64,000 nt of DNA from NCBI RefSeq assembly GCF_001632365.1, contig NW_024468585.1, positions 1 through 64,000 on the forward strand, given 5' to 3'. A model generated the notes under the pieces. The model had not been told where the DNA came from. It saw nothing but the letters and a program-made list of their open reading frames with translations, and did no database searches. This DNA comes from Laetiporus sulphureus 93-53 (lineage: Eukaryota > Basidiomycota > Agaricomycetes > Polyporales > Laetiporaceae). How positions within the stretch are numbered: position 1 is the first letter of the stretch; each line of letters starts with the position of its first letter. The translations under genes were made by a program, and so were the position numbers. Of this stretch, positions 35,466 through 60,196 are shown piece by piece.

Positions 35466-37584
35466 ATGACAACGATATTGTCTTACTTTCAAACGCTGGT
35501 CAGCGTTCAGTACGCTGCTTGGTTGCTGCTGGCTCCTGTGCTCGTTCTCCTCGTTCATTTCGTCCCTTACCTGCGTGATCCGCATCGCATCCGTTCCTAT
35601 CCGGGCCCATTCCTCGCGAAGCTCTCCGATGCATGGCTAGGCTGGGTGGCTGCGAAGGGACACCGTTCCGAGGTCGTTCACAAACTTCATCAGAAACATG
35701 GTGAGTAGAATCAGTTTGCTTCATGTTCCTGCTTCAGTGGAAAGAAAGTTGGGGAAAGGATAGCTCGGAGAGGTACTGCTGCAAACGAAATTACTCCATC
35801 TGGCAGGCTTAGTCAGCTGGTTGTCTCCTGGTATCCCGGCGTAGTGCGATGCACACCGGTCAACAGCAGAATATTGAACGCTCTACATCAGGACCTTTCC
35901 CTTCGGGTTTTATGGATATTCGCATTTCAATCTTCGTAGATCACGATTCACTCACAACAATCACAATTATACAGGCAAATTTGTCCGCATTGCACCCGAC
36001 CATGTGTCCATCAGCGATCCTGAGGCCATTCAGGAAGTTTACGCCCACGGCAATAGCACGACAAAGTCCAACTTCTACGATGCGTTCGTGTCCATTCAGC
36101 GCGGTCTGTTTAACACGCGCTCGCGCCCAGAGCATGCTCGTAAACGCAAGATAGTCTCGCACATCTTCTCCCAGAAGAACGTGCTCGACTTCGAGCCATA
36201 TGTTCGCATGCACATCGCTGCACTAATGAAGCAGTGGGACCGCCTCTGCGATCTCAGTGCGAAGGGACTCTCTGGCGAAGAAGGTGAGGGCGGATGGAAA
36301 GGCCGTGACGGCAGACTCTGGCTTGACTGCCTCCCGTGGTACAACTACTTGGCTTTCGACATTATCGGTATGGTCTCTATTTTCCTGCAGGCTGAACAAT
36401 TATTAAGTCGTTCTTTATTAGGTGACCTGGCATTCGGTGCGCCCTTTGGCATGCTCCAAGCCTGCGCGGACGCTGCACCCGTGGCCGTATCTCAAAAGGA
36501 CGCAATGGCCTCGTACGGTGAGAGCGGGTCGCCAGAAATCACCTATTTCCCTGCCGTCCAAGTTCTCAATGACCGCGGCGAGTACTCTGCATCGATAGGC
36601 GTCCTGCCTCATTACTGGCGTCCCTTGGCCGTGCGGTTCATACCCTGGTATCGGAATGGCAACAAGGCCGTGAAGCGCCTTGCGGGAATCGCTATCGCTG
36701 CGGTGGCGAAGAGACTGACCACTCCTACTGACCGTGTGGACCTGCTCGGTAAGCTTCAAGAGGGCAAGGACGATGAAGGTAACCCGATGGGAAGGGAGGA
36801 GCTCACTGCGGAAGCTCTCACCCAGCTGATCGCTGGCTCGGACACGACATCCAAGTAAGCCTGCTTCGTGATGTGCCATAGGCTCCGGCTGATTGCATTG
36901 GCTAAGCTCCTCTTGTGCAATTACATACTTCCTCGCAGCCAACCCGATGGTGCAGCAGAAGCTCCAGCGCGAGCTCGACGCAGCCCTCGGCAACGACGAC
37001 GACCCAGTGGCAACCTACGAGCAGGTCAAGCGTCTCCCCTACCTGGACGCCGTCATCAACGAGGCACTGCGCGTGCATTCGACCTCTGGGATCGGCCTCC
37101 CCCGCGTGGTACCCGAAGGCGGCATCACTGTCTGTGGGCAGTTCTTCCCCGAGGGCACCGTCTTGTCTGTACCGACGTATACAGTCCATAGGGACAAAGA
37201 GGTGTGGGGAGAGGATGTGGAGGTATTCAGGCCTGAGAGATGGGAAGAGTGCGACAAGAATGAGATGCAGAAGGCGTTCAACCCGTTCTCCTTTGGGCCG
37301 CGGTAGGTGTATCTCGGGCGTGCGTGACGACTTGGGGCTCAGATTTTGTTTACACAGGACATGTGTCGGCCGTAACCTGGCAAGCCTGGAGCTGCTCGTC
37401 ATTATCTCCTCCATCCTGCGCCGATACCACTTCGTGCTGCAGGAACCTGAAAAGAAGGTGTGTGCCAATTAATCTATCCGCACTGATCTCTGATGCATGT
37501 GCTGCGATGCAGTTCGAGACACGGGAAGGTTTCCTCCGCAAGCCAGTGCAATGTAAAGTCGGCATCAGGCGGAGGACGGTGTGA
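35466..37584 (+). CDS. cytochrome P450, CYP53-like (benzoate 4-hydroxylase type)
   Basis: This is a membrane-anchored microsomal monooxygenase. The N-terminal anchor (AAWLLLAPVLVLLVHFV) is followed by a proline hinge, RSYPGPFLAKLSDAW, characteristic of CYP53. Family-type blocks follow: FVRIAPDHVSISDP, SNFYDAFVSIQRGLFNTR, HARKRKIVSHIFSQKNVLDF. The I-helix carries AGSDTTS, the K-helix carries NEALRVHS (ExxR), PERW is present, and the heme loop is FSFGPRTCVGRN with the Cys ligand. An intron interrupts the heme loop after FGP(R). CYP53 enzymes hydroxylate benzoate and related aromatics at the para position, a detoxification and lignin-breakdown step; this substrate is family knowledge, not seen here. 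The start at 35466 is chosen because it opens the anchor and follows a TATA box. About five introns. Confidence 0.85.
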
Positions 37585-37862
37585 TCAGAATTACATTATT
37601 CGGCCGCGTCCTCGAACCTCGTCGACTATGTCGCTTGCGTATAGATTAACGATGCCCCTGCTCTATTCATGCGTTCTCGGCGCAGTTTCTCACCAGACAA
37701 CGTCTCTCGGAGGACAGTCAGTTGCACCGGCCTTTAATGGCGGTTATGTCGACGTATACGAAAGTACTGGTCTCATCGACGGCAATAGCTTTCATTATCG
37801 GTTATCATCAAATATACGTCTAGACCATTCCAACGTGGCCGGTCAACAGTCAGGCCAGACGC

Positions 37863-38402
37863 CTATGCGCTGGCGGGGGGCTTGCATCCGAAGCCAGTGG
37901 CAGAGGCCCAGCAGGTGTAGCCAGCCTACAAGCAGTATGTCAGCGAGTGATTCACGCGAACGAGAGAGAGCCACATACATCGCAAGACGATCCTGCTACA
38001 CTGGGATCCACCTCGCCGTCGTTGCAGTAGACGATCTCGATGCCGTAGCAGTCGCTGCGGTCACGATCAGTAGGTGTTCGACGAAAAGGCAAGCTAGAAA
38101 CATACTATCCGGTGTAGGAGGCCGGGCACTTCGTCTGGCGGCGCTGCATGGGGGCCGTGCAACCAAAGTCGGTTGTGGATGCCCAGCAAGTGTCGCCGGC
38201 CTACAAGATAGCGTTAATGAACGGTGGACACGAACGAGAGCGGGTAGCATACATTGCAAGAGGATCCGGCAACGCTGGTGTCGATCTCGCCATCTTTGCA
38301 ATAGATGATCTCGGAGCCGTAGCAGTCACTGAATATTTGATGAGCAAATAGTGAACATAGAAACAAAATGGACACATACTATCCGGTGTAGGAGGCGGGG
38401 CA
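37863..38402 (-). repeat. tandem genomic duplication of the cysteine module
   Basis: Unit A runs 38129-38402 and unit B 37863-38128, each from the first module Cys codon and each spanning two introns. The introns differ more than the exons, which fits an older duplication under selection for the protein. Confidence 0.85.
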
Positions 38403-38483
38403 CATCGTCACGCTGCGCTCGATGGTCAGAGCCTTAGCCGCACCGACGAGGAACGGAAGGGCGAAGAGGACAGCGAAACGCAT
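37863..38483 (-). CDS. small secreted protein with two tandem six-cysteine modules
   Basis: Five exons join in exact frame: 38380-38483, 38253-38328, 38106-38200, 37979-38054 and 37863-37925. The introns are 51-53 nt and all GT-AG. The product is 137 residues. It opens with a clear signal peptide, MRFAVLFALPFLVGAAKA. Then come two modules, each with cysteines spaced C-x8-C-x7-C-x13-C-x5-C-x8-C; shared blocks are CPASYTGYDCYG, VAGSSC and TCWAS. The two modules are joined by a linker with a dibasic Arg-Arg (MQRRQTK) that a Kex2-like protease could cut. Exons 2 and 4 are both 76 nt and the introns fall at matching codons, so the module duplicated together with its introns. Twelve cysteines suggest six disulfides. 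I recognise no named domain. It may be an effector-like, cell-wall or defence peptide, but its role is unknown. It converges with the P450 gene. Confidence 0.88.
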
Positions 38484-38575: not shown

Positions 38576-38584
38576 CCTTTTATA
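38576..38584 (-). promoter_or_regulatory. TATA box of the cysteine-rich secreted protein gene
   Basis: TATAAAAGG on the minus strand, 93 bp before the start codon. A near-perfect TATA box suggests strong or inducible expression. Confidence 0.65.
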
Positions 38585-57652: not shown

Positions 57653-58315
57653 CCTCGAGGAGATGCGATTTGCTAAGATCACAGCTGAGTTTCGGCTATG
57701 CGTGCATTCACTGCAGCCACGATACACGTCGCAGTCCCCTCCTTCCTTTTGCGGGACGATTTCCCACGCTCCATATTATAACTTTCTAGTCTGACTTTTT
57801 TTTCGCACATCATGTTGCCTTGTACTGATGTCTAACCAGATGCCATAATTTGTCATGGTGGTCCGGAAATCCTTTTGCAGTGCTTGTGCACCGGAGTCAT
57901 TGACCATCATAGCCACTGTGGTTATAAAGGTAGCAGTTAGAGACAAGAGGTCTGAAGAGGTGGCGGAAAGGCTATTTGAAGTATTATCAACGAGCGCCAG
58001 AGAATGTTGTGCCTGTTGCACGCGATAGCGTAAGATTCATTCTCTTAATGGCGGTGAAAAATAACCAGCAGAGTATCGGAAGATTTTGAACATCACCTGC
58101 CGGCAAGAGACCAAAGGACGTTGCTGAAGAGCCAGGAGCCATGGAGATCACATGGGTGTAGTGTCACGCAGTGTCACACGTATCACATCTGGCGATTCAC
58201 GTCACACCGTTTTTTTTTACTCCCTTCTCTTTCTCTAGTCGAGCGTGTAGACCGCGCAGAGATCCAGCTGGTGAGAATTCAGAACTATGTTCTCGAATTC
58301 ACCGTGTACAACTAC
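57653..58315. promoter_or_regulatory. divergent promoter region, ChAPs gene / PPR gene
   Basis: About 660 bp between the two start codons. It includes an upstream in-frame extension of the PPR frame back to 58121, a T-run near 58210 and an 81-codon minus frame (57776-58021) without features. No TATA box stands out. Confidence 0.45.
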
Positions 58316-60196
58316 ATGCAGGAAAAAATCGCAGTACGATCCATTCTACCGCTCCGCCAGACTGTCGTCACATCTAGGCGGACATGCGGCCGCCTGGGAT
58401 CTTTGAAGCCGCCACCACGACGTGCGGACCAACCCAAGACAACCCCACTTGTCCCTAAAGGACCTCCGCTCTATGTTACGAGAGCATCGAAGAAGGCACT
58501 CTACAGGCATGAGACTGTGGACGCAAATAAGACAAAAGACGTCGAACATGTGCCTGGCGCGATCAGCACACTGCTGGAGCCGGTGGAAGAGTACCTTCGT
58601 CTCGAGCGACCAGGTATGGCTCTCAGACGATTTCATGCCGACCTTGATAGGTCTTCTGTCGAAAGTTCCACTCGATTCTCCGCGTATGAAAGCGCAATCG
58701 GGCTGTTTTTGCGGTACAGGCAACCGCTTGAGGCTGCGATGATACTCGGACGCATGTCGTTAGCTGGATACATTCCCTCGGTATCCGCGCGTACACAGAT
58801 GGCGGTTATGCATTTTTTGATGCGGTCCTCCGATGCGAATCTGTTAATGCAAGAACTGCATCAGTACTTCTCGAACAAGTCCTTCAAACAATATTGTCTC
58901 CGAGATCTACTGCATCTTATGGACCATATCGCGGAGTGTCATCCCGAGACGATGGAAAAAATTGTGAAGCTCTTCCTGGAGATCAAAGGCCCCCACGAAG
59001 TGCTCTCAGAAAAATCGCGGAATCTTCTCGTACTCATGTACACAAAGGCAGGATCCGCGGAGTCCGCCTTGCGGTGGATTTCCGAACCGAAGCCCTCACC
59101 ATCAGAATCTACACCAACCCCGGTCACTCGGCAAACCTCAGACAAGCAGGCACACCCTCCGCACCTGTACACAACGCTTTTCAGGAACCTGGCCTCGAAT
59201 CAAGACGAAGATGGTACCACCTATCGCCGGATCTTCCAAGAAGCCCAGGAGCAGGGCATCGTCCCAGACCTTCCCTTTTGCAATGCCCTCATAGCAGTGC
59301 AGGTCGATCGCCGGCGCTACGACCAGGCCTTCCTCATCTACCGCCTTCTTTTTGACGAGCGCACGCAAACAAGCACACCTGACGCGTTCACATATGTACC
59401 ACTGTTCCGCGCTGTCTGCAACCTTCACCGGCCGCACAATGCACACACCCGCGGCTATCGGCGTCCGCTTGATGTTCCATCTCCTCGCCGGCTCTTCCGC
59501 GACATGCTTGAGTGTCACTTACTGAGAAATGGCTTGCCTCAGAAGTGGCTGCCATCTCCGGTGTTGAACGGTTCTGTGCTGCGCCATGCTCTCCGGATGT
59601 TTATGAGTATGGAGGATTACGCGGCCGCTCTCGTCATCTTGCGATCGTTTGTTCTCTTCGATGAAGACATTACTCTGAAGGTGTATCGCATAATACTTTA
59701 CCGCCTGATGCATCGGGTCAACTCGGAACTGGTTAGAATGCCTAAGGTGCCGGAGCCACATCGCCTGTGGACGTATCGCTTCTTAGGCTTAGCCTCTCGT
59801 CCGGACTTCGCGCCCAAGCGTGTCGATTTCCACCTCTTCGATGAGGTTCTGCGCCTCGGTACGGAGCCGCGCATCAATTTGGACTACATTCCTCCCCCCA
59901 TTTGTGCAATAAGAAGCACTTTATCTGGTGGTGCAGTCGGCCCGCTCGCGCCCGCCGACGCAGCTATCCAGCTGAGCCAACAGCATGGGATGCCTCCTGG
60001 ACTTCTGATCGCAGGTTTAATGGAAGACAACACGCATCCTAACACGCGCTACAGTGTTACACCTCTTCAGCGGATCTTGAGGCGGGCGGTACTGGCACAA
60101 CGGATGCATTTGTTCTGGGATCCGGCGGTGCAGGTCTCGCATGACGTCGCACAAGCAAAGGCCGAGGTGCTCGGGGGAGTAATGAAGGAGCGATAG
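58316..60196 (+). CDS. pentatricopeptide-repeat-type mitochondrial protein
   Basis: A single uninterrupted coding region. From 58316 the N-terminus MQEKIAVRSILPLRQTVV is basic and free of acidic residues after the first turn, like a mitochondrial presequence. The body shows PPR-type helix pairs: YESAIGLFLRYRQPLEAAMI, FCNALIAVQVDRRRYDQAFL, FTYVPLFRAVCNLHRPHNA and LRHALRMFMSMEDYAAALVI. The conserved-looking end has SQQHGMPPGLLIAGL. Such proteins bind organellar RNA or support mitochondrial translation. The frame stays open to 58121 (691 codons), but that extra part has no targeting character, so I prefer 58316 (626 residues). The near-absence of introns sets it apart from its neighbours. Exact role unknown. 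Confidence 0.7.
   Translation: MQEKIAVRSILPLRQTVVTSRRTCGRLGSLKPPPRRADQPKTTPLVPKGPPLYVTRASKKALYRHETVDANKTKDVEHVPGAISTLLEPVEEYLRLERPGMALRRFHADLDRSSVESSTRFSAYESAIGLFLRYRQPLEAAMILGRMSLAGYIPSVSARTQMAVMHFLMRSSDANLLMQELHQYFSNKSFKQYCLRDLLHLMDHIAECHPETMEKIVKLFLEIKGPHEVLSEKSRNLLVLMYTKAGSAESALRWISEPKPSPSESTPTPVTRQTSDKQAHPPHLYTTLFRNLASNQDEDGTTYRRIFQEAQEQGIVPDLPFCNALIAVQVDRRRYDQAFLIYRLLFDERTQTSTPDAFTYVPLFRAVCNLHRPHNAHTRGYRRPLDVPSPRRLFRDMLECHLLRNGLPQKWLPSPVLNGSVLRHALRMFMSMEDYAAALVILRSFVLFDEDITLKVYRIILYRLMHRVNSELVRMPKVPEPHRLWTYRFLGLASRPDFAPKRVDFHLFDEVLRLGTEPRINLDYIPPPICAIRSTLSGGAVGPLAPADAAIQLSQQHGMPPGLLIAGLMEDNTHPNTRYSVTPLQRILRRAVLAQRMHLFWDPAVQVSHDVAQAKAEVLGGVMKER

Follow-up and report, generated by a model that had tools for sequence, protein, structure and literature searches.

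Introduction

Domains of the CBM14/tachycitin fold are found in Der p 23, tachycitin, Avr4 and the C-terminal region of CHIT1. In the CHIT1 domain (PMC4844120), the cysteines are spaced Cys420-x19-Cys440-x9-Cys450-x12-Cys463 with conserved disulfides 420-440 and 450-463, and a construct lacking Trp465 and Asn466 lost chitin binding. Kex2-processed repeat proteins (KEPs) form a second point of reference. Of two surveys, the first required at least three repeats and reports KR, RR and KK as the sites used (PMC6339444), and the second labels one KEP type of Neocallimastix and Piromyces as Chitin_bind_1 and assigns another KEP type to Laetiporus (PMC7329392). Here, we describe a gene for a probable secreted protein of two tandem six-cysteine modules in the polypore Laetiporus sulphureus 93-53. 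The gene occupies 38483..37863 on the minus strand of the window, the first 64,000 nucleotides of contig NW_024468585.1. For this species, a multi-omics study of strain ATCC 52600 names CBM13, CBM20 and CBM21; its main text contains neither “CBM19” nor “small secreted”, and the secretome includes 10 hypothetical proteins (PMC8052766).

Gene structure and module duplication

Splicing at GT-AG sites joins five exons into an in-frame coding sequence of 414 nt encoding 137 residues, reproducing the exon structure and translation of a preliminary description made from the window's letters. Exon 1 (104 nt, 38380..38483) carries the likely signal peptide and the start of module 1, and is followed by intron 1 (51 nt, phase 2, 38329..38379), exon 2 (76 nt, 38253..38328) and intron 2 (52 nt, phase 0, 38201..38252). 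Exon 3 (95 nt, 38106..38200) encodes the end of module 1, the linker and the start of module 2, with intron 3 (51 nt, phase 2, 38055..38105), exon 4 (76 nt, 37979..38054), intron 4 (53 nt, phase 0, 37926..37978) and exon 5 with the stop codon (63 nt, 37863..37925) completing the gene. Module 1 extends from Cys28 to Cys74 (38159..38402, including introns 1 and 2) and module 2 from Cys85 to Cys131 (37884..38128, including introns 3 and 4), with 10 residues between them. As the preliminary description had claimed, both modules have the spacing C-x8-C-x7-C-x13-C-x5-C-x8-C (gaps of 8, 7, 13, 5 and 8), exons 2 and 4 are equal in length, and the introns fall at matching codons: in each module, the first intron (intron 1 or 3) interrupts the corresponding Tyr codon and the second (intron 2 or 4) comes directly after the codon following Cys4. 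All four introns contain a branch-like CTNAY or YTRAY match.

The modules are identical at 38 of 47 residues and 113 of 141 bases, and their duplication goes beyond chance. Third codon positions hold 19 of the 28 differences, and the modules disagree at 10 of the 19 fourfold sites that they share. Nonsynonymous (dN) and synonymous (dS) distances between the modules are 0.10 and 1.01 by the Nei-Gojobori method (NG86; dN/dS 0.10), and 0.11 and 0.89 by the Li-Wu-Luo method (LWL85); the modules are under purifying selection. Introns 2 and 4 also resemble each other, with a score reached by 3 of 2000 shuffles (uncorrected for the six intron pairs compared), whereas introns 1 and 3 show no likeness (811 of 2000); fractions for the other four pairs range from 0.07 to 0.31. 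The likeness of introns 2 and 4, together with the shared positions and phases, argues that the exons were duplicated together with their introns, which have since partly eroded.

The N-terminus is compatible with a signal peptide, with 9-residue Kyte-Doolittle means reaching 2.8; the peptide would comprise residues 1-18 (38430..38483), with a predicted cut after Ala-Lys-Ala. The only dibasic site of the protein, Arg80-Arg81 (38138..38143), lies in the linker. Hydropathy, splicing and module comparison bear out the proposal of a secreted-type protein in which a six-cysteine module and its introns have been duplicated.

Upstream, the TATAAAAGG box, one of the features that led the preliminary description to propose a strongly expressed secretory product, was located at 38576..38584 on the minus strand (start 38584), 101 nt 5' of the ATG. 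Counting both strands, the window contains two TATAAAA sequences. The frame read without splicing stops at donor 1. At the donors of introns 1 and 3 (last exon bases 38380 and 38106), GGA TAG reads Gly-stop when only that intron stays, so that retention of either would terminate the protein immediately. An open frame of 271 residues (37493-38308, plus strand) lies antisense across most of the gene and most likely results from codon bias rather than marking a gene.

Homologues and distribution

A search of about 5.8 billion proteins, which required shared five-residue words and similar length and which distant relatives may therefore escape, returned two matches at E<=10 from nine candidates (two from 73 in another search). 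The top match, LAESUDRAFT_753088 of L. sulphureus 93-53, is identical over 137 of 137 residues (E 2.7e-88) and presumably derives from the same genome as the window. Its UniRef name, available in truncated form, begins “Carbohydrate-bin”, and it has no precomputed Pfam domain.

The only other match, WOLCODRAFT_139219 (P0002) of Wolfiporia cocos MD-104 SS10, aligns with E 4.1e-15 and 52% identity over 47% of the query. Both fungi belong to the Polyporales, L. sulphureus being a polypore of the Laetiporaceae and W. cocos a member of the Phaeolaceae. The W. cocos protein has the same cysteine spacing and is identical to module 1 at 28 of 47 residues and to module 2 at 29 of 47. By this spacing and the significant similarity, the two proteins belong to a common six-cysteine family, and since the spacing is kept, the lack of any such homologue, which the preliminary description had named as a possible refutation, does not apply. 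All three modules carry a Trp directly after Cys5. Unlike the two-module protein, that of W. cocos has 98 residues, a single module and a longer N-terminal pro-like stretch. This stretch, residues 19-43, contains Ala-Glu-Ala-Glu-Ala ahead of the lone module, which we take to resemble pro-regions trimmed by dipeptidyl peptidases. Because the Laetiporus modules are closer to each other than to the W. cocos module, either the duplication postdates the split from Wolfiporia or the copies were homogenised.

No second copy was found in the window's genome in exon-by-exon DNA and protein searches, which diverged copies could escape. In viral contigs, 24 stretches fitted a pattern and none was confirmed. 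“LAESUDRAFT” does not occur in the literature searched, nor was this protein described in the titles and abstract beginnings of the matches listed for CBM19, CBM14/tachycitin, small secreted proteins, Kex2 repeats, Laetiporus and Wolfiporia.

Fold and domain comparisons

At E<=10, Pfam returned no family for the full protein, either module or the W. cocos protein, although HMMER filters can discard weak matches, and Foldseek gave nothing below 1e-3. Two methyltransferase models (best E 0.00068) and one epimerase model from NCBIfam were far below their cut-offs, and weak sequence matches in the PDB, antibody chains first (lowest E 0.076 and 0.16), were likewise judged to be chance. The Laetiporus structure model shows beta hairpins in both modules, with ten-residue block means of the predicted local distance difference test (pLDDT) mostly between 68 and 80 within them. 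VIA-align places CBM14/tachycitin-fold domains at the top of the lists for both models. Among the matches listed, CBM14-type structures account for five of six with the L. sulphureus model (8in6, 4zce, 8in3, 6bn0 and 1dqc) and five of eight with that of W. cocos (4zce, 8in6, 8in3, 5hbf and 4z4a), with weak Z. Of these, we take 8in3 and 8in6 to be structures with peritrophin-A domains. PMC6128652 names the other five (6bn0, 4z4a, 4zce, 1dqc and 5hbf) as CBM14 structures. The preliminary description knew no named domain with this spacing, which stands for Pfam at E<=10 but is tempered by the fold comparison, which points weakly to CBM14/tachycitin; that weak likeness and the existing record name make the protein less undescribed than it first appeared.

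The favoured explanation, to which we assign slightly less than an even chance, is a tandem secreted protein in which each module probably adopts a tachycitin-type, polysaccharide-binding fold, with chitin as the likeliest ligand. The module core, Cys1-x16-Cys3-x13-Cys4-x14-Cys6, is comparable in span to the CHIT1 domain, and by analogy with CBM14 the disulfides may pair Cys1-Cys3 and Cys4-Cys6, with Cys2-Cys5 as the remainder. The polypore, a wood-decay fungus, would secrete two tandem 47-residue beta modules with three disulfides each, every module a small fold of beta sheet plus beta hairpin. Exposed aromatics would contact the polysaccharide, candidates being the Trp after Cys5 and the conserved tyrosines, and the tandem arrangement, derived from one module duplicated along with its introns, could raise avidity for the fungus's own wall or that of a competitor. 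Several points weigh against this explanation. The CBM14 profile PF01607 did not reach its cut-off (no Pfam match at E<=10), Cys2 and Cys5 are placed differently from those of CBM14, the invariant Trp after Cys5 does not fall at the place of CHIT1 Trp465 when the cysteines are mapped onto each other, and Z is weak for the fold matches.

CBM19 offers a second comparison. PF03427 (cut-off 20.1 bits) matched neither the protein, its modules nor the W. cocos protein; three typed CBM19-like strings, run as a control on the tool, reached 15.3, 27.8 and 30.2 bits. Used as queries, typed CBM19-like cores returned three natural proteins from 113 candidates, of which P0005 passes PF03427 with 22.4 bits. 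The other two, P0003 (163 residues) and P0004 (166 residues), each combine a signal-like start with three CBM19-like modules of six cysteines and lack any above-cut-off Pfam match; like the Laetiporus protein they are tandem, but with three modules each. CBM19 and these proteins share with the Laetiporus modules six cysteines, Cys4-x5-Cys5-x8/9-Cys6 and a Cys4-x-x-Gly motif, but their Cys1-Cys2 (6) and Cys3-Cys4 (9) gaps are shorter and Cys2-Cys3 (8 to 11) is longer. When the module profile was compared with seven CBM19-like domains in hhalign, 154 of 200 cysteine-fixed shuffles equalled the real score. In HMMER, its score was close to the tail for the first P0003 module (reached by 13 of 500 shuffles), P0005 (23) and the first P0004 module (34), but was reached by 182-358 for the remaining four domains, and in the reverse direction by 190, 371 and 249 of 500. 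Because the profile comparison has no overall significance, we do not place the Laetiporus module in CBM19. A precedent for such caution comes from Rhizophagus clarus, in which a Laccaria “CBM19 protein” was the likeness found for two candidate effectors that themselves lacked PF03427, and the authors refrained from predicting a function (PMC4746824). In the Laetiporus genome itself, sub-cut-off matches to CBM14 (one, L009) and CBM19 (three, L002-L004) looked unrelated and were set aside, the former by eye and the latter from six-frame translations; P0005 gave one match there at E 0.037 (L010).

Alternative explanations

The fate of the lone Arg-Arg would decide between a single bivalent molecule and a pair of peptides. 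In a reading that can coexist with chitin binding, and that the preliminary description had raised as a possibility, Golgi Kex2 would cut after Arg80-Arg81 to free six-cysteine peptides of 63 and 56 residues; we give this a somewhat less than even chance. The only dibasic site falls within the 10-residue inter-module linker, the W. cocos homologue is one free module behind a pro-like stretch, and the protein shares with KEPs a signal-type start, repeats and a dibasic site between repeats. RR, however, is a weaker Kex2 site than KR, there are two repeats and one site only, and no dibasic pair precedes the module of W. cocos. RR is among the sites used in the first KEP survey (PMC6339444), and the Chitin_bind_1-labelled type of the second shows that repeats with a chitin-binding label can occur between Kex2 sites (PMC7329392). 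We dropped the KEP label, as the three-repeat minimum of PMC6339444 excludes a two-module protein, which would for that reason have escaped the survey. A bolder version strikes us as doubtful: the six-cysteine modules would form a new family of binding domains, known from these searches only in two related polypores of the brown-rot type, and duplication of exons and introns would have turned a one-peptide gene into a two-peptide precursor split in the Kex2 manner.

A cysteine-rich antimicrobial or competitor-directed peptide, aimed at a membrane or protein instead of chitin, would likewise be small, of secreted type and disulfide-rich, as is this protein, seen in only two fungi in these searches; tachycitin, one of the fold matches, is itself titled antimicrobial and chitin-binding. 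We consider this unlikely, since the protein is acidic (computed isoelectric point 4.1) and most antimicrobial-type peptides are not. The fold matches favour a binding module over a regulatory small secreted protein (SSP) of wood decay that lacks sugar binding, which we regard as improbable; its model would be the SSPs of Pleurotus ostreatus, which PMC5674062 describes as mostly orphans lacking any Pfam domain and treats in its discussion as regulators acting on three families of enzymes. That the gene is mispredicted or unexpressed is very improbable given the cysteine spacing preserved in another genus, the dN/dS of 0.10 between modules and four consistent introns that remove the stops of the unspliced reading; an identical public prediction agrees, though presumably from the same genome.

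Neighbouring genes

Pieces of a cytochrome P450 gene lie at 36004-37584 on the plus strand, where the frame 36004-36858 is above the PF00067 cut-off and the frame 36915-37472 slightly below it. By eye, this gene ends with TGA at 37582-37584, about 280 nt from the stop of the two-module gene, and the two genes are convergent. Farther along, a 691-residue open frame at 58121-60196 (plus strand) has a weak pentatricopeptide-repeat match (18.8 bits, cut-off 30).

Significance

The gene encodes a tandem protein of secreted type that is genuine and restricted to its lineage; its module is probably a diverged, small chitin-binding-like one, and its general interest is modest. Small secreted proteins make up a large unannotated share of wood-decay fungal secretomes, and if its modules are diverged chitin-binding domains below the reach of Pfam, this protein would offer a concrete, testable case and a clean example of a tandem protein that arose when coding exons were duplicated along with their introns.
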